A stretch of DNA of 64,000 nt. It comes from Natrinema sp. SYSU A 869 (GTDB taxonomy: Archaea > Halobacteriota > Halobacteria > Halobacteriales > Natrialbaceae). Below, piece after piece: positions 14,126 to 51,833 of this stretch (its first letter is position 1; each line of letters starts with the position of its first letter). The stretch is taken from the NCBI RefSeq assembly GCF_019879105.1, contig NZ_CP082247.1:744001-808000 (forward strand). The letters run 5' to 3'. The notes beneath the pieces were generated by a model. The model was not told the origin of the DNA. It did no database searches and saw only the letters and a program-made list of their open reading frames with translations. Position numbers and translations under genes: made by a program.

Positions 14126-15124
14126 TCATGGCGCTAACGCGGTCATCGTCTCGTGTATTTCGTCCGGTCCGGCGCCCCGCGGGAAGGAGACGTTGACGGC
14201 GTCCAGTCCGTCGATATCGAGGAACTGCTGCAGTTGTTCGCGCGCCTCCGCCGGCGCCCCCGCGGCCCCCATCTGGTCGCGCAGCTCCTCCCGAACGATC
14301 ATCGTGGCGCGGTCCTTGTCACCTTCCTGCCACAGATCGTAGATCTCGTGGGCGACCTCCTCGTACCCCTGTCGGACGAGGTTATCGCGGTAAAACGTCC
14401 CCATCCCGCCGATGTAGAATGCGGTGTGTTGGGCGACGAGTTCGCGGGCGCGCTCGCCGTCCGCGAGGGCACAGCAGCCCACGGCGAGCGTCACGCGGAG
14501 ATCGTCGGGGTCTCTGTCACCTAACTCGGCGCCGCGTCGGAGGTCGGCGAGCCGCTCTCTGAGGCCGTCTCTGGTGTAGTTGACGGCGTGCCAGCCGTCG
14601 GCGAAGCGACCGGCGAGTTCGACGGCCTTCGGGCCGAGACCCGCCGCATCGACCGGTGGGGCCGGTTCCGGCGGGTCACAGCGGAGTCGAAAGCCGTCCA
14701 GGGAGAAGTACTCGCCGTCGTAGGAGACCGTCTCGCCGGCGAGGACCTGTTGGACGATCTCGACCGTCTCTCGTGTTCGACGCAACGGATTGCCGAAGTC
14801 CATCCCGTGCCAGTTTTCGATAACGATCGGTCCGCTCGGACCGATGCCGAGCCGGAAGCGGCCGTCGCTGGCCTCCTGCAGCGTGGCGGCCGTCTGCCCG
14901 AGCAGCGCCGGCGATCTGGAGTAGATGTTGGCGATGCTCGTTCCGATCCCGATCTCGTCGGTCCGTTCGGCCGTGGTCGCCATCGCGGTGACGACGTCCC
15001 GTCCCCAGGTCTCCGGAAACCAGACGCGGTCGTATCCCAACTCCTCGGCGGTGACCGCCTGGTCGACGAGATCCTCAAGCGTGGGCTGTGCACCGACCGG
15101 CAGAAAGACGTCCCTATCGGTCAT
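14126..15124 (-). CDS. Luciferase-like (LLM class) F420-dependent oxidoreductase, copy 1
   Basis: 332 aa TIM-barrel oxidoreductase of the bacterial-luciferase/Mer superfamily, expected to use coenzyme F420 (possibly FMN). Landmarks: VFLPVGAQPTLEDLVDQAV, ELGYDRVWFPETWGRDVVT, GTSIANIYSRSPALLGQTAA and FADGWHAVNYTRDG. It is a close paralogue, with identical length, of the gene at 20370-21368. The ATG at 15124 matches the paralogue's start; a longer frame reaching 15229 lacks support. It resembles what I recall as the NP1902A subfamily. Reaction unknown. Confidence 0.85.
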   Translation of the reverse strand: MTDRDVFLPVGAQPTLEDLVDQAVTAEELGYDRVWFPETWGRDVVTAMATTAERTDEIGIGTSIANIYSRSPALLGQTAATLQEASDGRFRLGIGPSGPIVIENWHGMDFGNPLRRTRETVEIVQQVLAGETVSYDGEYFSLDGFRLRCDPPEPAPPVDAAGLGPKAVELAGRFADGWHAVNYTRDGLRERLADLRRGAELGDRDPDDLRVTLAVGCCALADGERARELVAQHTAFYIGGMGTFYRDNLVRQGYEEVAHEIYDLWQEGDKDRATMIVREELRDQMGAAGAPAEAREQLQQFLDIDGLDAVNVSFPRGAGPDEIHETMTALAP

Positions 15125-15293
15125 GTCTGTCTCGTATTTCGCATTCATAATAAAAGTACACGGCGGACTCGAGCGTCGCTTGCAAACCTGACCGAATGAG
15201 CTCGATCGGACACGCTCGTTCCGTATCAATCTGGCCCGCGTAGCGGAGGATCAGTGGTGGGATTTATACGCTCACGCCGCACAGTGGGATTTG

Positions 15294-20369: not shown

Positions 20370-21368
20370 ATGACAGACCGTGACGTATTTCTCCCGGTCG
20401 GCGCACAGCCCACGCTCGATCAACTCGTCGATCAGGCGGTCGCCGCGGAGGAACTGGGATACGATCGCGCCTGGTTCCCCGAATCGTGGGGTCGTGACGT
20501 CGTGACGGCGCTCGCGACCGCTGCCGAGCGAACGGATCGGATCGGCCTCGGAACGAGCATCGCCAACGTCTACTCCAGATCACCGGCGCTGCTCGGGCAG
20601 ACGGCCGCCACGCTGCAGGAGGCTAGCGACGGCCGCTTTCGACTCGGACTCGGTCCGAGCGGCCCGCTCGTCGTCGAAAATTGGCACGGGATGGACTTTG
20701 GCAACCCGCTGCGTCGAACGCGAGAGGCGATCGAAATCGCCAGACAGGTAGTGGGCGGTGAGACCGTCTCCTACGACGGCGAGTACTTCTCCCTGAACGG
20801 CTTTCGACTCCGCTATGACCCGCCAGAGCCGGCGCCGCCGATCGATACGGCGGGACTCGGCCCGAAAGCCGTCGAACTCGCCGGTCGCTTCGCCGACGGC
20901 TGGCACGCCGTCAACTACACCAGAGACGGAATCGCCGATCGCCTCGAGGACCTCCAACGCGGCGTCGAACTGGGAGACAGGGATCGCGACGACCTCCGCG
21001 TCACGCTCTCCGTGAGCTGCTGTGCCCTCGCAGACGGCGAACGCGCCCGCGAACTCGTCGCCCAACACATCGCCTTCTACCTTGGCGGGATGGGGACGTT
21101 TTACCGCGATAATCTCGCTCGGCAGGGGTACGACGAACTCGCACACGAGATCCACGACGCGTGGCAGCGGGGGGAGCGCGACCGCGCTACGGATCGCGTG
21201 CGGGCGGAGTTACGCGATCAGATGGGCGCTGCCGGTACGCCGGCCGAGGCCCGCACGCAACTGGAACAGTTCGAGTCCATCGACGGCGTCGATGCGATCT
21301 ATATCTCGTTCCCGCGCGGGGCCGAACCCGACGAGATACGTGAGACCATGACCGCGATGGCTCCGTGA
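20370..21368 (+). CDS. Luciferase-like (LLM class) F420-dependent oxidoreductase, copy 2
   Basis: 332 aa, the paralogue of the gene at 14126-15124. The same length and near-identical blocks (VFLPVGAQPTLDQLVDQAV, GTSIANVYSRSPALLGQTAA, FADGWHAVNYTRDG) point to a duplication within this genome or lineage. The two copies face opposite directions and bracket the hydroxyacyl-CoA dehydrogenase and the three crotonases. Expected to reduce or oxidise a substrate with F420; the substrate is not deducible. The two enzymes may be redundant or act on related intermediates. Confidence 0.87.
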   Translation: MTDRDVFLPVGAQPTLDQLVDQAVAAEELGYDRAWFPESWGRDVVTALATAAERTDRIGLGTSIANVYSRSPALLGQTAATLQEASDGRFRLGLGPSGPLVVENWHGMDFGNPLRRTREAIEIARQVVGGETVSYDGEYFSLNGFRLRYDPPEPAPPIDTAGLGPKAVELAGRFADGWHAVNYTRDGIADRLEDLQRGVELGDRDRDDLRVTLSVSCCALADGERARELVAQHIAFYLGGMGTFYRDNLARQGYDELAHEIHDAWQRGERDRATDRVRAELRDQMGAAGTPAEARTQLEQFESIDGVDAIYISFPRGAEPDEIRETMTAMAP

Positions 21369-32307: not shown

Positions 32308-33057
32308 TCACACGTACCCGGCGTCGACTTTCAGCGCTCGTCCGGTCACGTACGACGCGTCCTCGCTGGCGAGGAAGGCGACGCAGGACGCGACTTCGTC
32401 GGGATCGGCCCAGCGGTCGAGCGCTGTCTGCCGACGCATCGCCTCCTGTTCCTCCTCGGAGTACCACTCGTCGGTCATCGCCGTGTCGATCAGACCGGGA
32501 CAGACGGCGTTGATGCGAACGTCGTACTGTGCGAGTTCGCCTGCGACGGACCGCGTGAAGTGGAGCACTGCCGCCTTCGTGAGCGCGTAGGACGTGATCG
32601 GGGCCGGCTTCCATCCCGCCATCGAGGACGTATTGACGATGACGCCGCCGCCGTCTGCCTCGAACAGCGGGAGTACGGCGTGACAGCCGTTCCAGACGCC
32701 CTTAAGATTCACGTCGATCAGTTCGTCCCTGTGTTCGCGCGTCGTTTCGCGGAAGGACCGCGCCTCACCGATGCCGGCATTGTTGAACAGCACGTCCAGT
32801 CCGTCGTAGTCCTCGGCGACGGCGTCCAGACACTCCTCGAACCGCTCGTAGTCGCTAACGTCGAGCGAGCGGAACTCCGCCGTCCCGTCGGCCGCCTCGT
32901 TTGCGTCGATCCGCTCGACGGTCTCTTCGCCCCGCTCGTTGTCGATGTCAGTGACGACCACGTCGACGCCCTCCTCGGCCAGTCGGTGCGCCGTCGCGCG
33001 GCCGATCCCGGACGCACCGCCGGTAACGACTGCAGTCTTTCCGTGCAATCCTCGCAT
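32308..33057 (-). CDS. Short-chain dehydrogenase/reductase (SDR)
   Basis: 249 aa classical SDR. The NAD(P)-binding motif TGGASGIG is near residue 12, the NNAG motif is present, the catalytic Ser is in NTSSMAG, and YALTKAAV provides the Tyr and Lys. Asp in VVTDIDNERG after the second strand suggests NAD preference. TATA box GTATAAGA (33080-33087, minus strand) lies 27 bp ahead of the ATG at 33057, rejecting a longer frame to 33129. Divergent from the E1alpha gene. As an NAD-dependent alcohol/ketone oxidoreductase it could serve the 4-hydroxy/4-oxo acid or acetoin steps proposed for this region. Confidence 0.9.
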   Translation of the reverse strand: MRGLHGKTAVVTGGASGIGRATAHRLAEEGVDVVVTDIDNERGEETVERIDANEAADGTAEFRSLDVSDYERFEECLDAVAEDYDGLDVLFNNAGIGEARSFRETTREHRDELIDVNLKGVWNGCHAVLPLFEADGGGVIVNTSSMAGWKPAPITSYALTKAAVLHFTRSVAGELAQYDVRINAVCPGLIDTAMTDEWYSEEEQEAMRRQTALDRWADPDEVASCVAFLASEDASYVTGRALKVDAGYV

Positions 33058-33216: not shown

Positions 33217-34232
33217 ATGTGGGATCGAATGACACAGAACGTTAGCGTCGACGACGACACGGCGAGAGATCTCCTCGAGGAGATGCTCCGCATCGATGTC
33301 TTCGAGGAGGAGACGAAAGAGCGGTTTGGAGAGGGGGAGATTCCGGGGTTCGTGCACCTCAGCGGCGGCCACGAGGGATCACATGTCGGCATGGGAGCTG
33401 CGATGCGGGACGAGGACTGGCTGGCAGTCGGGGGTGCGCGACTGATCGGACAGTATATCGCGAAGGGCGTGCCGCTACCGGAGATCATGGCGGAACTCTA
33501 CGGGCGCGTCGGGGGATCGAACAAGGGCCACGGCGGCCAGATGCACGTCTCCGACGTCGATCGGAAGCTGTACGGACACGCCGCAACGATCGGCTCCGGG
33601 CAGAACCCCGCCGTCGGACTCGGGCTGGCGGAAGAGATGAAGGGGACCGACAACGTGGCGGTGACGACCATCGGCGACGGCGGGACGAGTCGCGGCTCGT
33701 TCCACACGGCGCTCGTCTTCGCCGCGTACTGGGACCTGCCGGTCGTATTCATTATCGAGAACAACGAGTGGGCCATCTCGACGCCCGCCGAATCGCTGTC
33801 GCCGGATCACCTCTCGGATTACGGGATTCCGCACAACATGCCGACCGAGAGCATCGACGGGAGCGACGTCGAGGAAGTGTACCACACTGTCTCCGAGGCG
33901 ATCGAGCGCGCTCGCAATGGTGAGGGACCGACAGTCATCGAGAGCCGCGTCGTCCGTCTCGTTCCCCATTTCGAAGGGACAAGGAGACCTACCGCGACGA
34001 GGAGGCCTACGAGCGGGCCAAGGAGGAGAAGGATCCGATCGAGAACTATCGGGAGCGGCTGCTCGAGAACGACGTCATCACCGAGGCCGAACTCGAAGAC
34101 ATGGTCGCGAACATCGAAGCGGAGGTCGAGGAGGCCGTCGAGTTCGCTCGCGAGAGCCCGGAACCGGAGCCGGAAGCAGCCTACGATCACGTCTACCAGC
34201 TGCCCCTCTACGGGCAGGGTGAGGGACAATGA
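33217..34232 (+). pseudogene. 2-oxoacid/acetoin dehydrogenase E1 alpha subunit, one frameshift
   Basis: About 338 aa when repaired. It is the thiamine-diphosphate-binding E1 alpha: GDGGTSRGSFHTAL and IIENNEWAIST form the ThDP/Mg site, with GGQMHVSD before it. The frame breaks at GGG 33976-33978. Adding one G gives HFEGDKETYRDEEAYERAKE and runs on to DHVYQLPLYGQGEGQ, whose TGA overlaps the E1beta ATG (ATGA). That overlap is the normal arrangement and argues that the real gene is intact. Compact E1 alpha of this type is shared by pyruvate, branched-chain and acetoin dehydrogenases. Confidence 0.88.
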
Positions 34233-36874: not shown

Positions 36875-37876
36875 TCAGGGACCGAGATCGGAACCCGTGA
36901 TGACTTCGTCGTGGAACCGCTCGTTCTCCTCGGTCCGGTCGGGCGGAAACAGGCACATGACGTGGTCGACGCCGAGCTCCTCGAGCGCTCGCAGTCGCTC
37001 TCGACACGCCTCGGGCGGTCCCGCGACCGCGAAGCGATCGCCGAGATACTCCCACACCTCGTCGTCGATGTCCGCGAGCGCGTCCGCTTCCTCGTCGCCG
37101 TGCTCCTGCATATCGTGAGCGTCGACGAGGTCGCGGAGGTCGGCTTGCACGTCAGCGGGCGCTTCTTCGACGGAGAAGCTGAAGTTGTGATAGGCGATGG
37201 GTTCGATGACCGGCTTCAGCTTCTCGACCGCTCGAGCCCGGCTGTTGGCCGCGCAGGTCGGCGTGAGCGTCACGATATCGAGGTCCTCGAGCGACCGCCC
37301 GGCGCGTTCGGCCCCTTTGCGGACGTTCGCCAGCCCGAGCTCCTCGACGGTCTCGGGGTTCGGACCGCCGCCGAAGATGACGCCGTCGGCCACCTCGCCG
37401 GCCATCCGCAGCGTCTTCGGGCCCTCCGCAGCGACGTATACGGACACGTCACGTCGTCGCGACTCGAGCCGAAACGGCTCGCCGCCGAACGCGACTTCCT
37501 CGCCGCGAAGCAGACGACGGATTTTCGTCGCGCTCTCCGCGACCTCCTCGACGGTCGCCGGCCGCTGTCCGACGGAATAGACGGCGCTGTCGCCGGCGCC
37601 GATGCCGAGTACCGCTCGGCCGTCGGCGAGCTGGTCGAGCGAGGCGATCGCGTTCGCCGTCACCGACGGGTGTCGGCTCTTGGGGTTGGTGATGCCGGGC
37701 GCGAGCGTCAGTTCGTCGGTGACCGTCGCACACTCCGCGAGCGTGACGTACAGGTCGGTGTAGAGCTGCTGGGAGTCGATCGCCCAGAGAGCGTCCCAGC
37801 CCCACGACTCGAGCGAGCGGGCGTATTCCCTCGCGTCGGCGACGGAGTCGGTCGCGACGAATCCGCCGAAGTTCAT
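36875..37876 (-). CDS. Luciferase-like (LLM class) flavin/F420-dependent oxidoreductase
   Basis: 333 aa, related to methylene-tetrahydromethanopterin reductase (Mer) and F420-dependent dehydrogenases. Segments: NFGGFVATDSVADAREYARS, WGWDALWAIDSQQLYTDLYV, LAPGITNPKSRHPSVTANAI and VLGIGAGDSAVYSVG. It is only distantly related to the two LLM paralogues at 14126 and 20370. Its ATG overlaps the HyuB stop (ATGA), so it is translated with the HyuA-HyuB pair and likely acts on the same substrate or its product. Last gene of the minus-strand run. Confidence 0.87.
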   Translation of the reverse strand: MNFGGFVATDSVADAREYARSLESWGWDALWAIDSQQLYTDLYVTLAECATVTDELTLAPGITNPKSRHPSVTANAIASLDQLADGRAVLGIGAGDSAVYSVGQRPATVEEVAESATKIRRLLRGEEVAFGGEPFRLESRRRDVSVYVAAEGPKTLRMAGEVADGVIFGGGPNPETVEELGLANVRKGAERAGRSLEDLDIVTLTPTCAANSRARAVEKLKPVIEPIAYHNFSFSVEEAPADVQADLRDLVDAHDMQEHGDEEADALADIDDEVWEYLGDRFAVAGPPEACRERLRALEELGVDHVMCLFPPDRTEENERFHDEVITGSDLGP

Positions 37877-39554
37877 GACTCGTCGGCCGGGTCGTAGCCG
37901 TAGACGTCTCGAGCGCGCGCTTCCGAAATCAGCCCCCGCTCGACGTCCGCCGCGACGCGTTCGGGGTCGCGGTCCTCGGGATCACCGTAGCCGCCGGGCG
38001 TCGCGGAGACGAGCGTGAGCGTCTCGCCGGGCTCGAGCGTTCCGGGGCCGTTCGGCGGAACCTCTTTTCCGTCGCTCGAGGAGGCCGTCGTCGCCCGTTT
38101 CCCCGATCGACCGCCGCGGAAGCCCGACGGATCGCGGTCGGCGCGACCGGAGGTGAGCGCGAAGTACACCGGCCGATCGGTCGGGTTGTGGTACGACGTG
38201 CGCATCGCCGGTCCGGACCGATGCTCGCCAGCCCCTTCGGTATCGGGGACTAGCGCCGTCTCCTCCCATCGGAGCGGACTGTAGCGTTCGAACATCTCGA
38301 TAGGGGTGTTCTGCCCGTTGTACGGGAAGTAGACGCCGGGGATCCCGTCCCCGTCGGCGCTGGGCGGGAGACCGCCGGCCGTCCCGCCCACGGCGATGAA
38401 CTCGTCACCGTTCTCGTCGGCACCCGAGAACGGCGCGAGTTGAATACCCGCCATCTCGGAGAGCGCCGATTCGGGGACGACCTGACCCAGCGCGCGGATG
38501 AGCGCGTCTTCCGCCCGCGAGTAGGTGAGGTGGCGACCCATCGTCGCCTTCGGCCGATCACAGTTGAGGATCGATCCCTCCGGTGCGGTCACCTCGATGG
38601 GCCGGAAGAACCCTTCCGCGTTCGGCAGATCGGGGACGAGCATGCACTTCACGATGTACTCGGTGATGGTGACGATGTTCCCGAACGGACAGTTGATCCC
38701 GCCCTCGACCTGCGCCGATGTCCCGGCGAAGTCGACTTCCAGGGAATCACCGTCGATCGTCGCGGCGACGCGAATCTCGAGATCGTGCTCGGCGATGGTG
38801 AATTCGATCGAGTCCTCGTACGTGCCGTCGGGCAGGTCGGCGAGTCTCTCCCGCAGCGCGCGCTCGGTCCGCTCGATGACCTCGCTCGCGACTCGGTCAA
38901 ACGTCTCGGGGCCCCGATCGGCGACGATTTCTCGAACGCGCTCCTCGCCGACCGTGTTCCCCGATCGCAACGCCTCGAGGTCGCCCAGCGCCTGGTGGGG
39001 GATCCGGACGTTGCTCCGAATGATGGAATCGACCGCGTCGTTTCGCTCGCCGGCCTCGTAGAGCTTCGTCGGCGGAATCAGGATCCCCTCCTCGTACACC
39101 TGTTCCGCGTCGGTCGACCAGCCGCCGCGGTTCCCGCCGACGTCGTCGGTGTGACCGAGACTGCCCACGATTCCGACGAGATCACCGTCGTGGAAAACGG
39201 GGTTCAGGACGACCACGTCCGACAGGTGACCGCCGCCGATCCAGGGGTCGTTCGTGATGACGGTATCGCCCGGTTCCAGCGTCTCCGGCGGGAAGTGATC
39301 CTCAAGGATGATCCGCGTCGTCCGGGAGAGTGCCCCTGAGAGAACGGGGACGGACTGGTCGGAGAGGCCGATCGCGTCGCCCTCGGCGGTCATGACGGCC
39401 GTCGAGGCGTCGGCTCCCTCTCGAATGGAAAGGAGTACGCCAGCCGCTCGGCGGCATCGTACATCTCGTCCGCGGTGGCTTGCAATCGGTTCCAGAGGAC
39501 CTGGGTCTCCAGGCCCGTCGAATCGGTTGTCTCGGTGTCGTCTGTTTCAATCAT
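37873..39554 (-). pseudogene. hyuB: Hydantoinase/oxoprolinase B-family subunit (HyuB), one frameshift
   Basis: About 560 aa when repaired. The N-terminus starts at ATG 39554, overlapping the HyuA stop (ATGA), and reads TQVLWNRLQATADEMYDAAE; the frame breaks at 39429-39431 (AAA on the plus strand). Restoring one base gives AYSFSIREGADASTAVMTAE and joins the long conserved part (ITNDPWIGGGHLSDVVVLNP, GHTDDVGGNRGG, VEGGINCPFGNI, PGGYGDPEDRDP). HyuB acts with HyuA in ATP-dependent ring opening of lactams or carboxylation of ketones (5-oxoprolinase, N-methylhydantoinase, acetone or acetophenone carboxylases). Which reaction occurs here cannot be told from sequence. Confidence 0.88.
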
Positions 39555-41623
39555 AGTTCGATGGTGATGTCGTAGTTGTCGGCGACGGTCACGATCGAGT
39601 CGGGATCGGCGACGACGGTCGTCTGGTCTGCTTCGACGACGATGGGACCGTCCACCGTCTGGCCCGCCTCGAGACCGTCCCAGCGGTAGACGCCGGCCTC
39701 GACGGTCCCGTACTCCGGTCCGTAGTAGACATCTCGCTCGCCGGGTTCGGTACGATCGCCCTCTGGAGCGGCGAGCTGTGCGGTCTCGCCGGTACTCTCG
39801 TCCTCGCCGAGTTCGAGACGGTAGGTGAGCACCTCGACGGGAAACTCTAGCGTCTCGCGGTTGAACGTCTCCCGGTAGGTACGTTCGAACGCGTCGCGGG
39901 CGGCCTCGGGAGTCACGTCGTCGATATCACAGTCTTCGAGGGGGACTTTGATCTCGTGGCCCTGATCGACGTGGCGCATATCGAGGCTGAGAGATGTCTC
40001 GGCTTCGTCCAGATCGATGCCTGCCCGCTCGAGGACCGATGCGGCCTCCTCGCGGAGGGACTCGAACTGACGGCGGAAATCCTCGGTCGAGAGCGTCGCG
40101 AGAACCGCTTGACTCGTCGAACTGGCCTCGTACATGCACGGCGCTTCGGTGAGTCCGATCGAGGAGCCAACGCCGGCGCCGTACGGGCAGACGACCTCGT
40201 CGATACTGAGCTTTCGGGCGACGCGAAACGCGTGCGACGGACCGGCGCCACCGAGGGCCGTCATTGAGAGTCCGCGAGCGTCGATCCCGCGAGAGGCGGC
40301 GTACCGACGGAACGCCGTGGCCATGTTTTCGTTGACCACCTCGAACACGCGCCACGCTGCCTCGGTGACCGAAACGTCGAGCGGGTCGGCGAGTTCCTCG
40401 GCGAAGACGGATTCAGTCCGTTCAGCGGCCAGCTCCATCCGCCCGCCGTAGAAGTTCTCGGGGTTAAGGTAACCGAGCAGGAGCGAGGCGTCCGTCACTG
40501 TCGGCTCCTCGCCGCCCTGATTGTAACAGATCGGACCGGGATCGGAGCCGGCCGACTCGGGACCGACTTCGACGAGTCCGACGTCGTTCACGGAAGCGAT
40601 CGATCCCCCGCCGGCACCGATCTCGGTGAGATCGATGAGCGGCGAGACGAGGTCGTAGCCGCTCCCCTCCTTGAACCGGTGGACGCGGGCGACGTCGGTC
40701 TCGTACTTCATCCGGACGTCGCCGTCCTCAACGACCGATCCCTTCGCCGTGGTGCCGCCCATATCGAAGGAGAACACGCCGTCGTTGCCGTGGTTCTCGC
40801 CGAAAATGCGCGAGGCGAGGACGCCCGCTGCCGGGCCGGACTCGACGAGTCGGATCGGTTCCGCCTTCGCCGTCCGGACGTCGACGATACCGCCTGACGA
40901 GGTCATCATGTAGACCTCACCTGCGAATCCCTCCGACTGAAGTTCCGAGCGGAGGAACTCGAGGTAGTCCGCCACGACGGGCGCGACGTACGAGTTGATG
41001 ACGGTCGTCGACGTTCGCTCGTACTCCCTGATGACGGGAACGACGTCCGCGGAGAGCGAGACGTTCAGGTCGGGATACTCGTCTTCGATGACCTCGGCCA
41101 CGGCGCGCTCGTGAGTATCGGACTCGTAGGAGTGCAACAGCGACACGGCGACGGAGTCGACATCGTGGTCCTCGACCAGCGTCTGAGTCCGCTCGCGGAC
41201 TTCCTCCTCGTCGAGCGGCTCGACTACCTCGCCGTCGTCGGTCAGGCGCTCGTCCAACTCGAGACGGCGCTGGCGGGGGACCAGCGGGTCAGGATACTCC
41301 ATCTCCCAGTCGAACATGTCGTAGCGCGACCCGCGCCGGAGTTGGAGCGTGTCGCGGATCCCCTCGGTCGTGAGCAGCCCCGTCGTCGCTCCCGTGCCTT
41401 CGATGAGCGTGTTTGAGACGAGGGTCGTCCCGTGAATGACAGTGTCGAGATCGTCGAACGAGACGTCGTTCTCGTCGAGGATCCGACGAGCCCCGGTCAG
41501 CGCCCCCTCCGCCGGATTCGCCGGCGTCGTCGGCTCCTTATCGATGGTGACCGTCCCCGACTCCCGATCGACCAGGGTGAAGTCGGTGAAGGTCCCGCCG
41601 ATGTCCATGCCAAGTGTGTACAT
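39551..41623 (-). CDS. hyuA: Hydantoinase/oxoprolinase A-family subunit (HyuA), ATP-dependent
   Basis: 690 aa actin-like-fold ATPase. The phosphate-binding motif GMDIGGTFTDFTLVDRESG is at the start, VFSFDMGGTTAKGSVVEDGD is the second nucleotide site, EIGAGGGSIA follows, and GGAGPSHAFRVAR is the C-terminal signature. Intact. The ATG at 41623 is preferred over a GTG at 41647 because the nucleotide-binding motif normally starts within six residues; a TATA-like AACATATATTTG (minus strand, about 41656-41665) would start transcription just before it, so the hyu genes may have their own promoter. Forms an enzyme with HyuB, and couples by an ATGA overlap. Confidence 0.92.
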   Translation of the reverse strand: MYTLGMDIGGTFTDFTLVDRESGTVTIDKEPTTPANPAEGALTGARRILDENDVSFDDLDTVIHGTTLVSNTLIEGTGATTGLLTTEGIRDTLQLRRGSRYDMFDWEMEYPDPLVPRQRRLELDERLTDDGEVVEPLDEEEVRERTQTLVEDHDVDSVAVSLLHSYESDTHERAVAEVIEDEYPDLNVSLSADVVPVIREYERTSTTVINSYVAPVVADYLEFLRSELQSEGFAGEVYMMTSSGGIVDVRTAKAEPIRLVESGPAAGVLASRIFGENHGNDGVFSFDMGGTTAKGSVVEDGDVRMKYETDVARVHRFKEGSGYDLVSPLIDLTEIGAGGGSIASVNDVGLVEVGPESAGSDPGPICYNQGGEEPTVTDASLLLGYLNPENFYGGRMELAAERTESVFAEELADPLDVSVTEAAWRVFEVVNENMATAFRRYAASRGIDARGLSMTALGGAGPSHAFRVARKLSIDEVVCPYGAGVGSSIGLTEAPCMYEASSTSQAVLATLSTEDFRRQFESLREEAASVLERAGIDLDEAETSLSLDMRHVDQGHEIKVPLEDCDIDDVTPEAARDAFERTYRETFNRETLEFPVEVLTYRLELGEDESTGETAQLAAPEGDRTEPGERDVYYGPEYGTVEAGVYRWDGLEAGQTVDGPIVVEADQTTVVADPDSIVTVADNYDITIEL

Positions 41624-41718
41624 GTGTAGTTCGTCTCCGGAGTCCACATCCGGTCAAATATATGTTGTGATGGCCGATAGCAATAGACACAGTATCGGAC
41701 CGATGCGATCCGGATTCC

Positions 41719-42786
41719 TCAGCACCGATCGGCTTCGATGATCGCGAGGAGGTCCTCGATCAGCCCCGGGATCGGGTACTGGAACCAGGCGTTGCGGACG
41801 TCGTCGCTCGCGCCGGTGTCGTACTGATTGGCGCCCCAGCAGCAGATGGTGAGCATGACGAACGCCGAGAAGGCCTGCCAGTACCGGACGCGCTCCCGGT
41901 CGACGGGTCGTCCCGTCCGCCGCTCGTACTCGTCGTAGAACCACTCCCGCTCCAGCAGCGAGCAGGCGAGTTCGGGCCGCTCGATCGGCTCGACGAGTTT
42001 CCCCGCGAAGTACCGCGTGCTCGCATAGCCGAGGTCGAACAGGGGGTCGCCGACCCGGGCGAACTCCCAGTCGAGGAGGCCGGTGATCCGATCGTCATCG
42101 ATGAGGGCGTTCCCGATCCGGAAATCGCCGTGAATCAGCGTCGTCTCCGGAACCGCGGGTTCGTTGGCCCGGAACCAGCGAATCGCTTCCTCGACCGCCG
42201 GTTCGCGCTTCAGTTCGGCGTCCCGGTAGAGCGCCTCCCAGCGGTCGATCTCGCGAGTCACCACCTCGTCAGCCGGCACGTCCTCGATCCCCGGAACCGT
42301 CGCGCCGTCGATCGAGTGAACGCCCGCGGCGGCATCGACGAACTGGTTCGGAAGCGTTCGCTCGGCCGAGTCCCACGCGTCGTACAGGTCCTGTCGATCC
42401 CGCGGGTCCCACGTGATCGGTGGCTCACCCTCGAGATGGTCCATGACGAAGAGGCCGCGCTCGAACGGCCCACCGTCCGCGTCGAACCAGCGGACTCGCG
42501 GAACCGGAACGGGCGCGTCTTGACTCGCGACGAGCGTCTCGTACTCGGTCTCGATGTCATTCCCGGGGAGCGACGCCGCGTCGATATCGTGTTGCAGTTC
42601 GTTCTCGGCTCTGAGGACGAGACGTTCAGAGACGTCGTCGCCGTCTCCGCGATACCGAGCCGTGAACGAGACCGTGTCTCGGGACCACCCCTCGGTGTGC
42701 GCAACGATATCGTCGACGGACACCTCGCCGTCGGCGAGCGACCCGGAGAGGTACGTCGAGAGCGCGTCGGCCGTGAACTCCGTCAT
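41719..42786 (-). CDS. LvaA-like acyl-CoA kinase (APH-fold phosphotransferase)
   Basis: 355 aa aminoglycoside-phosphotransferase-fold kinase. Catalytic loop LIHGDFRIGNALIDD (HGDxxxxN) and metal motif GLLDWEFARVGDPLFDLGY are intact. This is the ACAD10/ACAD11-LvaA subgroup rather than antibiotic resistance, as shown by its neighbours: a small LvaB-like protein (ATGA overlap) and an acyl-CoA dehydrogenase. In Pseudomonas putida, LvaA with LvaB phosphorylates 4-hydroxyvaleryl-CoA (Rand and colleagues' levulinate work); the same step on a 4-hydroxyacyl-CoA is inferred here. A 95-bp gap separates it from hyuA. Confidence 0.85.
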   Translation of the reverse strand: MTEFTADALSTYLSGSLADGEVSVDDIVAHTEGWSRDTVSFTARYRGDGDDVSERLVLRAENELQHDIDAASLPGNDIETEYETLVASQDAPVPVPRVRWFDADGGPFERGLFVMDHLEGEPPITWDPRDRQDLYDAWDSAERTLPNQFVDAAAGVHSIDGATVPGIEDVPADEVVTREIDRWEALYRDAELKREPAVEEAIRWFRANEPAVPETTLIHGDFRIGNALIDDDRITGLLDWEFARVGDPLFDLGYASTRYFAGKLVEPIERPELACSLLEREWFYDEYERRTGRPVDRERVRYWQAFSAFVMLTICCWGANQYDTGASDDVRNAWFQYPIPGLIEDLLAIIEADRC

Positions 42787-43256
42787 TCCTCTCCCTCCCG
42801 GCCGAGCAGGCGCAACTGCCGGTCGACGCGCGTCCGCAGGAACTCGTACAAGGGCCGTCGAGCGATCGCGGCCCGCTCCGCGTCCAGTTCCTCGTCGATC
42901 GTCGCCAGTACGTCGTCCGCGGCGGTCAGGAGCGTCTCTTCGACGTCTCGAGTTGATCCGTCTACGGCGTCTATCTCGTCGCGAGCGTCATCGAGTGCGG
43001 TACGTACCGCGCTCGAGTCGATCTCGTTTCGTTCGAGCACCGACTCGAGCTCGTCCAACCGTTCGGCGAGAGTCCGACGCTGGGCCCGAACGGCTGCCTC
43101 CCGGCCGCCGACTTCGCCCGCCAGGAACTGCAGCGTCGAGGCCATCGATCCCACCTGCGCGTGAACGAACTCGTCGTCGGTGACTGCGGGGCGGACTTCC
43201 TCCCGCGTGAACGTCGCGAACCGGTCCAGTATCAGCTCCGGATCGAGGTATGGCAT
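42783..43256 (-). CDS. LvaB-like small helical protein (DUF6285-like)
   Basis: 157 aa, predicted all-helical and acidic: LDPELILDRFATFTREEVRP, ASTLQFLAGEVGGREA, and a C-terminal LYEFLRTRVDRQLRLLG. It resembles the small partner proteins encoded beside LvaA/ACAD10-type kinases, which in Pseudomonas are needed for kinase activity. It sits between the acyl-CoA dehydrogenase (49 bp upstream) and the kinase (4-base ATGA overlap). The start at 43256 is chosen because the preceding open frame is non-protein-like antisense of the dehydrogenase gene. Identification relies on size, helical pattern and gene order. Confidence 0.65.
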   Translation of the reverse strand: MPYLDPELILDRFATFTREEVRPAVTDDEFVHAQVGSMASTLQFLAGEVGGREAAVRAQRRTLAERLDELESVLERNEIDSSAVRTALDDARDEIDAVDGSTRDVEETLLTAADDVLATIDEELDAERAAIARRPLYEFLRTRVDRQLRLLGREGEE

Positions 43257-43305
43257 ACCGTGGTATAGTACGGTATCGTTACAAAAGCTGCGGGTCGGCC
43301 GCATC

Positions 43306-44538
43306 CTATCCGAGGTAATCGAACAGGTGACCGGCGACGTTGCGCTTCTGGATCTCCTCCGATCCCTCGGTGATCCGGTAGCGCCGGTGATGGCGGTAGA
43401 TGTGCTCAAACGGCTTGTGGCGAGTGTACCCCTGTCCGCCGTGGACCTGCATCGCCCTGTCGGCGGCGTCGCACGCCAGGAGGTTCGCGCGGTAGTTCGC
43501 CATCGAGACCTTGTCGCTCACGCTCTGTTGATTCTCCTCGTCGAGCTGCCAGGCCGTCTTGTACACCAGGTTGCGCACCATTTCGGCCTCCGTGTGCAGG
43601 TCGGCCAGCGGGAACTGGATCCCCTGTCGCTTCGCGAGCGGTTCGTCCCACGTGCGGCGTTCCTTCGCGAACTCGACCGCTTCGTCGATGCAGAACTGGG
43701 CGGCACCGACGCTCGAGGCGGCCTGCCTGATGCGGCCCTCGTGAACGAAGTACGACGCCTGCTGGAGGCCTCTGCCCTCCTCGCCCAGAATCGCGTCCTC
43801 GGGGACGCGGACGTCGTCGAGCGTCACCTCGGCGTGGTCGGTCGGCATGTTGAACGTCCAGTGGAAGTACTCGACCTCGAGTCCGTCCGCGTCAGTCGGC
43901 ACCCAGAACGCCGTGATTCCCTCGTGGTCGCCGTCGTCGCCGTCGGTCCGAGCGAAGATGACATCGTAGTCTGCGGTGTGCAAGCCGCTGTTGTATCGCT
44001 TCGCCCCGGTGATCACCCACTCGTCGTCGTCCTTCTCGGCCGTCGTGTCCATGTGCGTCGCGTCGCTGCCGTGTTCGGGCTCGGTCAGTCCGAACGCGGC
44101 GGTCGTCTCGCCGGTGATCAGGTCCTCAAGGTGGCGTTCTTTCCGCTCTTCACTGCCGAATTCGATCAACAGCTCGGGGACGTTGAAGTTTCCAACGACG
44201 GCGGCCTCCTGTTGCAAGACGTTGTGCAGGCCGATCCCCTTCTGGGCGAGGTGTTCCCGAATCACGGCCATCCCGAGGTTGCTCCCGTCCCGACCGCCGT
44301 ACTCCTCCGGGAGCATGTACCGATACAGTCCCGCCTCGTCGGCGCGGCGGCGCATCTCCTCGAGCAAGGCCTCCCATTCCGCCGTCGGCGTCCCGTCCTC
44401 CCAATTTGTCCGAGCGTCCTCGCGTCGGTGATCGAAGAACCGTTCGTGTTCCCGCTGGAGCGGCTCGATCTCGTCTTCGATGAACGCGTCTATCTCCTCG
44501 AGCAACTGCTGGAGCTGCTCCGGCATCCGGAAATCCAT
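43306..44538 (-). CDS. Acyl-CoA dehydrogenase, LvaC/ACAD11-type
   Basis: 410 aa. FAD/substrate motifs: AAFGLTEPEHGSDATHMDTT, WVITGAKRYNSGLHTADYDV, EEGRGLQQASYFVHEGRIRQ and the C-terminal ITEGSEEIQKRNVAGHLF with the expected Glu. HGGQGYTRHKPFEHIYRHHR is like ACAD10/11 enzymes. Next to the LvaB/LvaA pair it would catalyse loss of phosphate from a 4-phosphoacyl-CoA to give an enoyl-CoA, feeding beta-oxidation. The TATA box (44563-44572, minus strand) centres 27-30 bp from ATG 44538, preferred over ATG 44550 and 44526. Confidence 0.88.
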   Translation of the reverse strand: MDFRMPEQLQQLLEEIDAFIEDEIEPLQREHERFFDHRREDARTNWEDGTPTAEWEALLEEMRRRADEAGLYRYMLPEEYGGRDGSNLGMAVIREHLAQKGIGLHNVLQQEAAVVGNFNVPELLIEFGSEERKERHLEDLITGETTAAFGLTEPEHGSDATHMDTTAEKDDDEWVITGAKRYNSGLHTADYDVIFARTDGDDGDHEGITAFWVPTDADGLEVEYFHWTFNMPTDHAEVTLDDVRVPEDAILGEEGRGLQQASYFVHEGRIRQAASSVGAAQFCIDEAVEFAKERRTWDEPLAKRQGIQFPLADLHTEAEMVRNLVYKTAWQLDEENQQSVSDKVSMANYRANLLACDAADRAMQVHGGQGYTRHKPFEHIYRHHRRYRITEGSEEIQKRNVAGHLFDYLG

Positions 44539-44675: not shown

Positions 44676-45460
44676 ATGTCCGGGTTCGTTCGATCGGAGG
44701 AGGAAATCGAGGCGATTCGGGAACGGATGGTAGAGAACCGCTTCGACGACACGAGGCAGGTGGCGATCCGGTTCCGCACCCGCGAGTCGACGGTCGACCG
44801 GATCCTCCCGCCCGGTCTGGAACCGACCGAGGAGCCGGTGATACGGGTCGATGTCGTCGAGGTTGGGCGCAGTAATTGCGTCGGTTCGTTTCGCGGAGCC
44901 GGCGTCTACGTGCGAGCGCAGCACGAGGGCCACGTCGGAGAGTACTGTTTGACGATGCCGATGTCGACGGAGGCCGCGATCACGTGGGGACGAGAGCTGT
45001 TCGGTGAGCCGAAGAAGAAGGCCGCCATCTCGCTCGAGCGGAGCGAAAGCGAGGTGAGCGGACGAGTGTCCCGAAGCGGCGAGCCGCTCATCGAAACGAC
45101 GCGACCGTGGAAACGAAACGGCAGCTCGACCCGAAGCCGCAGACGATCTACCACTACAAATCGCTCCCCGACGCGACCGGGCGGGGGTTCCAGTTCGATC
45201 CGACGCTGGTCCGCGTCACGTTAGACAGCGACCTCCACGCGTACGAAACCAGGTCTGGCTCACTTTCGCTGGGCGAAGGGGCCGACAGTCCGCTCGGTGA
45301 ACTCGAAATAGAAGAGGTCCTCGGAGCGTCGTACACTGAGGCGGACCTGCGCTCGTCACAGGAGAACGTGACCACCGTCGACTCCGAAGCGTTCCTCCCG
45401 TACGCCTTCGGAACCGGACGCGGTAACGATTGGCTCGAGTTGGATAACGTATCCGATTGA
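44676..45460 (+). pseudogene. Acetoacetate decarboxylase-family protein, one frameshift
   Basis: About 261 aa when repaired. The Schiff-base lysine region GRELFGEPKKKA is present, as in acetoacetate decarboxylase, and the C-terminal half (LDPKPQTIYHYKSLPDATG, FDPTLVRVTL) is typical of the superfamily. The frame breaks at AAA 45094-45096; one extra A reads PLIENDATVETKRQLDPKPQ and continues to the natural stop. The family decarboxylates beta-keto acids or performs aldol/dehydration chemistry through a Schiff base. It is divergent from the LvaC-LvaB-LvaA-Hyu run, and may act on a keto-acid of that pathway. Confidence 0.83.
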
Positions 45461-45747: not shown

Positions 45748-47271
45748 ATGGACGGACTCACCGTCGGCTATCTCGCCGAACGGAACGCACGAATCCAGCC
45801 GGACGCCGAAGCGGTCGTCCAGCGGGCGGACGGAGCGCGAACCGAGACCGTGACCTTCGAGGCGCTCAACCGCAGGGTCGACCAGCTGGCAAACGCGCTC
45901 TCGGAATTCGGGATCGAGAAGGGAGACGCCATCGCGACATACACGGGGAATCGGGTCGAGACGATCGAGAGCTACCTCGCGGCGATGAAGCTCGGTGCCC
46001 TGCCGGTCCCAATCAACCACCGGTTCAAGGCCGGCGAAGTGAGCTACGTCCTCGAGGACAGCGACGCGACGTTGTGTATCTTCGGCGAAGCCGGTCGCGA
46101 GACGATCGCGGGCGTCCACGACGAGTTCGACTCGCCCGTCGAGACGTACCTGTACGCCGGTGACTCAACGCCGCCGTTCGCGACCGACTACGAGACGGTT
46201 CGGGACGAGGCCGCTCCCGATCCCGTCGAGGTCGTCCCGTCCCGGCTCGACGAGGCGGCCATCATGTACACGAGCGGAACGACCGGCGATCCGAAGGGGT
46301 GCGTACTCACGCACGACAACGTCGTCCAGGCCGCGGAGAACGGCCTCTACGAGGTGAACCTCTCCCGCGACGCCCGGTTCATGGTGGTGACGCCGCTGTT
46401 CCATATCGCCGCGTTCGGGCTGTTTATGATGTCGTTTTACGTCGGCGGGACGACGATCCTGGTCGACGACTTCGAGCCGGCGTCGGTCCTCTCGATCCTC
46501 GAGGACGAATCCGTGACGGCGTCGTTCATGGTCCCGATGATGAGCCGCGCGGTACTGTCGGCCGACCCCGAGTCGTACGACCTCTCGCAGTTCCAGCACT
46601 ACATGACCGGCGCAGCGCCCTCGGAGCGCTCGCTCAAGGAGGCGATCATCGAGACCGTCGACTGCAACCTCTACGACGTCTTCGGCCAGACCGAACTCTC
46701 GCCGTCGACGACGATGTTGCGACCGGAGAACGCGCTTGAGAAGCCCGACAGCGTCGGTCGGCCGATTATCAACGTCGAGGTCAAAGTCGTCGACGAGACG
46801 GGCGACGAGGTCGAGACCGGTGAAACGGGCCGGATCGCCTACCGCGGTCCGACGGTGTTCAAAGAGTACTACGGCATGCCGGAGAAGACTGCAGAGGTGT
46901 TCGACGACGGCTGGTTCGTCTCCGACGACCTCGTCCGGATGGACGAGGACGGCTTTGTCTACTTCGTCGGCCGGGCCGACGACATGATCATCACCGGCGG
47001 CGAGAACGTCCACCCCGCCGAGATCGAGGAGGTGCTCCACGACCTCGAGGGCGTGGACGAGGTCGCGGTCGTCGGCGTCCCCGACGACCAGTGGGGCGAA
47101 CGGATTAAGGCCGTCGTCGTCCCCGAGGAGGAGGCTGTCCTGACGGAGAGCGACGTCGTCGGCCACGTCGAGTCGAATCTGGCCGGATTCAAGAAACCCC
47201 GCGAGGTCGAGTTCCGGGACGAACTGCCGCGGAATCCGACCGGAAAGGTCCTGAAGAACGAGCTCGCCTGA
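45748..47271 (+). CDS. AMP-forming acyl-CoA synthetase (LvaE/FadD-like)
   Basis: 507 aa adenylating ligase. Motifs: IMYTSGTTGDPKGCVLTHDN, DVFGQTELSPSTTML, WFVSDDLVRMDEDGFVYFVG, RADDMIITGGENVHPAEIEE and NPTGKVLKNELA. An upstream TTG start adds nine residues of no known use; ATG 45748 is preferred. AT-rich sequence TTTTTTGACCAGTGTTATC precedes it, with the TATA box probably near 45715-45722. Its position next to the Lva-like genes makes it a candidate for activating the 4-hydroxy or 4-oxo acid, as LvaE does in Pseudomonas; this is inference. Confidence 0.9.
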   Translation: MDGLTVGYLAERNARIQPDAEAVVQRADGARTETVTFEALNRRVDQLANALSEFGIEKGDAIATYTGNRVETIESYLAAMKLGALPVPINHRFKAGEVSYVLEDSDATLCIFGEAGRETIAGVHDEFDSPVETYLYAGDSTPPFATDYETVRDEAAPDPVEVVPSRLDEAAIMYTSGTTGDPKGCVLTHDNVVQAAENGLYEVNLSRDARFMVVTPLFHIAAFGLFMMSFYVGGTTILVDDFEPASVLSILEDESVTASFMVPMMSRAVLSADPESYDLSQFQHYMTGAAPSERSLKEAIIETVDCNLYDVFGQTELSPSTTMLRPENALEKPDSVGRPIINVEVKVVDETGDEVETGETGRIAYRGPTVFKEYYGMPEKTAEVFDDGWFVSDDLVRMDEDGFVYFVGRADDMIITGGENVHPAEIEEVLHDLEGVDEVAVVGVPDDQWGERIKAVVVPEEEAVLTESDVVGHVESNLAGFKKPREVEFRDELPRNPTGKVLKNELA

Positions 47272-51037: not shown

Positions 51038-51833
51038 ATGCAGGAGTACGAGAACCTAGCAGTGACGCTCGACGGCGACGTCCTCCGAATCGCGATCGAC
51101 CGACCGGACGCGCTCAACGCGGTGAACGCCCCGCTCCACACCGAACTCGCCGAGGTGTTCGACGACGCCTACGACGCCGACGCGAGGGTGGTCGTCCTCA
51201 CCGGGAACGGCGACGCGTTCTCCGCCGGCGGCGACGTGAACTGGATGAAAGAGAGCGTCGAGGAGCCCGAAAGTTCCTCGAGACCGCCCGCGAGGGCGAG
51301 GAGATCATCGAGAGCATCGTCAACCTCGAGAAGCCGGTGATCGCGAAGGTGAACGGCGACGCGACGGGACTGGGGGCGACGCTCGCGCTCTTCTGTGACA
51401 TCGTCATGCTGAGCGAGGACGCGCGGATCGGGGACCCGCACGTGAACGTCGCGCTCGTCGCCGGGGACGGCGGGGCGGTCATCTGGCCGCTCCTGACGAG
51501 TCTGAACAAGGCGAAGGAGCTGCTGATGACGGGCGAGCTGCTCTCCGCCGAGGAGGCCAAAGAGCTCGGACTCGTCAATCACGTCGTCCCCGCCGACGAA
51601 CTGGACAACGCCACCGACGAGATGGTCGAGAAGCTGGCGACGGGGCCCCAGACTGCGATCAGATACACGAAAAGACCCTGAACAGCTGGCTCGAACTCGG
51701 GAACGACCTCGCGCTGACGAAAGGCATCGCGCTCGAGGCGGCGGCGCAACAGCATCCCGACCACGAGGAAGCCGTCGAAGCGTTTCTCGACGGCCGACGG
51801 CCTGACTTCCCGAGCGGCCGCGACCGCGAGTGA
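51038..51833 (+). pseudogene. Enoyl-CoA hydratase/isomerase family protein, two frameshifts
   Basis: About 266 aa when repaired. Oxyanion-hole motif FSAGGDVNWMKES. The first break is at CCC 51266-51268: one extra C gives EEPRKFLETAREGEEIIES. The second is at AAAA 51670-51673: one extra A gives AIRYTKKTLNSWLELGNDLA and on to RRPDFPSGRDRE. At the hydratase Glu positions it has Thr (GLGATLALFCD) and His (IGDPHVNVALVAG), a pattern seen in non-hydratase crotonases. With both repairs the protein has normal length and no internal stops. Followed 75 bp later by an acyl-CoA dehydrogenase. Confidence 0.87.

Follow-up and report, generated by a model that had tools for sequence, protein, structure and literature searches.

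Phosphorylation of hydroxyacyl-CoAs followed by elimination of the phosphate is documented in Pseudomonas and in mammals. In the Pseudomonas lva system (Rand et al., 2017, as far as it is described in PMC6692424 and PMC11342911), the kinase LvaA has a small partner, LvaB, which is reported to bind it in pull-down (PMC6692424). In mammals, ACAD10 and ACAD11 are fusions of a kinase with an acyl-CoA dehydrogenase (ACAD), and nonconservative substitution of three phosphate-contacting residues ablated their ACAD activity (PMC12440821). The related kinases whose function is known act on hydroxyacyl-CoA (PMC12440821, PMC11342911). A Stutzerimonas plasmid operon (L034) serves here as the lva-type control; it encodes a phosphotransferase, a DUF6285 protein, a histidine phosphatase, an ACAD, an SDR, an acyl-CoA synthetase and a symporter. 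No archaeal report of hydroxyacyl-CoA phosphorylation and elimination turned up in a limited search of open-access full texts.

The haloarchaeal locus described here lies in a 64,000-nucleotide stretch of Natrinema sp. SYSU A 869 DNA that was analysed as a whole (the window), which is part of a 0.89-Mb contig in a 5.67-Mb genome of three contigs. The original prediction described a trio of neighbouring minus-strand genes, and all three are intact where it placed them: an ACAD of 410 aa with Acyl-CoA_dh Pfam domains (43306-44538), a small all-helical protein of 157 aa in the position that LvaB takes beside its kinase (42783-43256), and an APH-fold kinase of 355 aa (41719-42786) with its catalytic HGDFRxGN and DWE motifs. 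The ATGA overlap between the small protein and kinase genes is found as described, and so are the kinase motifs HGDFRIGN and LLDWEFA, the catalytic residues of which are invariant in orthologues. On the plus strand are a gene of the acetoacetate decarboxylase (ADC) family (44676-45460, PF06314) and an AMP-forming acyl-CoA ligase of 507 aa (45748-47271, Pfam AMP-binding), the latter also foreseen and belonging to the conserved set. Downstream of the trio and co-directional with it are genes of the HyuA type (39551-41647), the HyuB type (37873-39512) and the LLM-class oxidoreductases (36875-37876), all on the minus strand and assigned from Pfam/NCBIfam. The HyuA/HyuB pair (37873-41647) is nearest to caprolactamase subunits, at scores well under their cut-offs. 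The two SDRs assigned an LvaD role do exist at 32308 and 61896, but they are generic and lie 9-18 kb from the trio.

A 400-kb plasmid of Natrinema salinisoli has an identical gene order, including the downstream HyuA/HyuB/LLM genes. Against its intact proteins, six window genes are split by frameshifts (E1 alpha, E2, HyuB, ADC, Zn-dehydrogenase and enoyl-CoA hydratase), with sites at 33978-33987, 36570, 39430 (in HyuB), 45096 (in ADC), 47560, 51250-51271 and 51670; the trio itself is spared. These frameshifts are either assembly indels or signs of decay. The ADC gene reads in two frames against an intact relative of 261 aa.

A profile search detects the small protein of the window type in 12 of 391 haloarchaeal genomes, spread over three families, and a single-sequence search of 292 haloarchaeal genomes found it in few. 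At every intact locus examined, kinase and small protein adjoin each other, down to about 40-50% identity, and an ACAD orthologue lies within a few kb at all of these loci but one, so that the trio is more than a chance adjacency. A ligase orthologue, 55-60% identical, accompanies the kinase at most of the distant loci. Conservation of the HyuA/HyuB/LLM and 2-oxoacid dehydrogenase genes is confined to the nearest relatives. Since the ACAD and the ligase persist at distant loci while other neighbours do not, the conserved unit consists of the kinase, the small protein, the ACAD and the ligase. One Natrinema genome carries a second, broken copy of the trio (L028, G193:C2:418641-419110).

This unit resembles the lva system in having an APH-fold kinase with an adjoining small partner gene and an ACAD and an acyl-CoA ligase nearby. 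It differs from it in lacking an lva-type regulator or transporter, in having the ligase on the opposite strand, and in its longer small protein, of 157 aa where that of the lva-type control has about 119. A similar layout is found on a Sulfitobacter alexandrii plasmid (L030), where a kinase 32% identical to that of the window adjoins a protein of equal length, 157 aa, with an AMP ligase and an ACAD next to them. There the order is kinase-small protein, whereas in the window it is small protein-kinase, and the Sulfitobacter ACAD differs in having the full R/R/H/R/D signature of LvaC and ACAD11.

The kinase matches PF01636 (E=2.8e-27), and both the HGDxxxxN motif and the Mg-binding D of the APH fold are present. 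Its relationships were studied in trees of 46 rows and then of 42, after removal of the four longest or shortest rows. The window family forms one clade of 13 rows. A branch supported at 99/98, and at 100/100 in the reduced tree, parts the ACAD11-like kinases, which include a second haloarchaeal family, from those of the window, LvaA and Sulfitobacter types. In the reduced tree, each kinase on the LvaA side has a small partner gene, which for the LvaA-type rows follows from their selection through a DUF6285 neighbour. A sister relationship of the window clade to LvaA is neither shown nor rejected (p-AU 0.33), and it may be sister to LvaA or to Sulfitobacter (81/45). The trees, in which long branches are present, give moderate support to the split from the ACAD11-like kinases, and the kinase, first taken for an LvaA, is better described as lying on the LvaA side, away from ACAD11, in a separate clade of its own. 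ACAD11 residues R86 and R176 were left out as kinase tests, the placement of R86 being ambiguous and R176 not being kept in the lva-type kinase of L034; the predicted structure of the kinase, of low quality at pLDDT 61, was likewise set aside.

The small protein had been predicted to be LvaB-like, and an HMM search had been proposed as a check. That search does not place it in the LvaB/DUF6285 family: it reaches no family cut-off, and neither it nor six haloarchaeal relatives match PF19802 (DUF6285) at E<=10. The LvaB-type controls reach 60-79 bits. DUF6285 occurs in none of 292 haloarchaea, and none is found in the window's own genome. Profile comparison gives a weak, collinear match to the LvaB set that covers the N-terminal ~60 residues (Prob 6.5%, or 9.8% with more sequences); the probability is 17% for Sulfitobacter-type small proteins and 55% for a pooled profile. 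With the LvaB/DUF6285 set as with the Sulfitobacter set, none of 150 column shuffles reached the observed score. Of nine LvaB-like or Sulfitobacter-type sequences ranked among 164 unrelated protein segments, four come in the top six and the others lower. The predicted model has five helices (pLDDT 88, pTM 0.74), and a fold search with it of the PDB and of viral models returned nothing at E<=0.001. A Pfam match to the CCDC93 coiled coil was discarded, as it scores below cut-off, coincides with helical sequence and does not recur in those relatives that were tested. These profile scores are suggestive of remote homology to LvaB, and an LvaAB-like kinase plus partner is a plausible reading of the two genes.

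The ACAD of the trio was predicted to play the part of LvaC, and here the prediction does not hold. Every residue specific to LvaC and ACAD10/11 is missing from it: in the alignment, R626 is replaced by F, H634 by Q, R637 by S and D753 by E, and its orthologues have F, Q, S/A and E at these four sites. ACAD11 and the lva-type ACAD of the Stutzerimonas plasmid carry R, H, R and D in the same alignment. By this signature test the window ACAD is an ordinary Glu-base enzyme. Its best PDB matches are ordinary ACADs (5ol2, 1ukw) with the same fold and the same Glu base; unlike them, it has extra basic motifs flanking the active site. These motifs, F[VL][HY]E[GNS]RIRQAA and RHHRRYRITEG, are conserved in its orthologues and missing from the other ACADs of the genome. 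RIRQ lies beside the active-site Arg, on the same helix, and RHHRR lies ahead of the catalytic Glu, so that another anion site is possible in this subfamily.

An ACAD that does have the LvaC/ACAD11 residues is encoded elsewhere. Of 292 haloarchaeal genomes, 145 have a match to such a signature ACAD (E<=1e-100), and the R626/H634/R637/D753-type signature is complete in 87 of the 88 copies examined. An ACAD11-clade kinase adjoins it at 24 of the 30 best-scoring loci, a non-random sample. This separate pair matches the ACAD10/ACAD11 type. The window genes belong to the same general enzyme classes as ACAD10 and ACAD11, but they are unfused, their kinase falls outside the ACAD11 clade, and their ACAD has no equivalents of the four signature residues. 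On an annotated Haladaptatus plasmid, a phosphotransferase gene is divergent from that of an ACAD in which the R/R/H/R/D signature is complete, and the haloarchaeal pairs are often divergently transcribed (L033 4477-6867; L065-L094). We found no description of this widespread pair. The window genome has one intact signature ACAD, on another replicon (G000:C3:1843751-1844962), and a kinase of the ACAD11-clade type that stands alone at C3:3274863-3275879. It also has a degraded extra copy of the signature ACAD, in two fragments with the middle missing (L064, G000:C3:904770-905327).

The signature ACAD of the window genome falls in a subtype B of 17 rows (SH-aLRT 100). Subtype B is found in 61 of 391 genomes (E<=1e-185), namely in all 12 genomes with the trio and in 49 of the 379 others (Fisher p = 8e-11, uncorrected for relatedness); genome richness and shared ancestry could lie behind part of this co-occurrence. 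One case comes from a family (f8) where no other sampled genome has either feature. In four genomes, the signature ACAD and both kinases are within about 10 kb of each other. Clusters in four genomes (L107, L108, L102 and L103) bring together, in some 20 kb, the small protein with kinases of both families and ACADs of both kinds, as well as an LLM oxidoreductase and an MBL hydrolase. If phosphate elimination occurs, the separate signature ACAD is the best candidate for it. The idea of a haloarchaeal 4-hydroxyacyl route, as had been proposed, is better supported by the separate pair of ACAD11-clade kinase and signature ACAD.

A mechanism can be proposed on this basis, and we favour it tentatively. 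The ligase would make an acyl-CoA, and the kinase and its helical partner would phosphorylate a hydroxyl of a hydroxyacyl-CoA, as LvaAB do. The in-operon ACAD would oxidise this intermediate, or one further along, at the alpha,beta position in the ordinary way. The separate LvaC/ACAD11-type ACAD would then eliminate the phosphate, giving an enoyl-CoA for beta-oxidation. We favour this mechanism because kinase and partner are always adjacent with the ACAD and the ligase kept nearby, because the kinase parts from the ACAD11-like kinases (100/100) and shares the side of LvaA and Sulfitobacter, and because Sulfitobacter has the kinase, the 157-aa protein, the ligase and a signature ACAD in a row. 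The small-protein profile scores that exceed every shuffle argue for it too, as does the presence of a subtype-B ACAD in all trio genomes, in four of which it is no more than about 10 kb away from the kinase. Against it, the four clustered signature ACADs also have an ACAD11-clade kinase nearby, and need not serve the window-type kinase. In addition, the likeness of the small protein to LvaB is weak, and single LvaB sequences rank inconsistently against unrelated proteins.

The kinase could instead have a target other than a hydroxyacyl-CoA, for example a terpenoid alcohol or some other small compound upstream of CoA activation, with the ACAD and the ligase being co-regulated neighbours in an island. 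APH-fold kinases are broad in substrate, no residue tested proves CoA binding by the kinase, and the window is a large catabolic island with many ligases, ACADs and F420-type oxidoreductases as well as HyuA/B, ADC and 2-oxoacid dehydrogenase genes. However, the kinase keeps the ACAD and the ligase as neighbours in different haloarchaeal families, when most of the island is not kept, and the characterised relatives of the kinase use hydroxyacyl-CoA (PMC12440821, PMC11342911), which makes this reading somewhat doubtful. It is improbable that the in-operon ACAD eliminates the phosphate itself through a different anion site, formed by the RIRQ helix and the RHHRR loop, in a functionally complete operon. 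The basic motifs set it apart from the other ACADs of the genome and its gene sits in the LvaC slot, but its Glu base is that of ordinary ACADs, it has replacements at the three phosphate-contacting residues whose nonconservative substitution ablated ACAD activity in ACAD10/11 (PMC12440821), and every trio genome already has a separate signature ACAD. We consider it quite improbable that the trio ACAD represents a second, independently evolved type of phosphoacyl-CoA-eliminating enzyme, with a Glu base and an RIRQ/RHHRR site. If it did, the haloarchaeal operon would be complete in itself, a counterpart of LvaABC built around another kind of active site.

The straightforward LvaA-LvaB-LvaC pathway for levulinate or 4-hydroxyvalerate, as in the original prediction, appears highly improbable. 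The predicted kinds of gene are indeed adjacent and resemble lva, with a kinase on the LvaA side and a small helical partner in the LvaB position that shows weak profile similarity. But the ACAD lacks the LvaC signature, which already contradicts the LvaC part, the partner is not a DUF6285 protein, no lva-type transporter or regulator stands beside the trio, and the SDRs are distant and generic. Nothing points to levulinate as the substrate. The gene trio alone is insufficient for inferring an lva pathway. Two haloarchaeal gene sets can now be named for testing: the kinase-partner module, and the widespread kinase and ACAD pair, the ACAD of which has the exact active-site residues of ACAD10/11 and is encoded by roughly half of the genomes sampled.

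The island has other features of note. An MBL hydrolase and three oxidoreductases of luciferase-like type raised the idea of a Baeyer-Villiger/lactone route, which was rejected, as the oxidoreductases match F420-dependent families and the hydrolase matches no lactonase family above cut-off. Two genes of the same catabolic island, at 14126-15229 and 20370-21368, both match TIGR04024 (F420-dependent LLM oxidoreductases) above its cut-off. Between 17447 and 20064, three reverse-strand pieces are akin to a 3-hydroxyacyl-CoA dehydrogenase/enoyl-CoA hydratase fusion and are apparently one broken gene.
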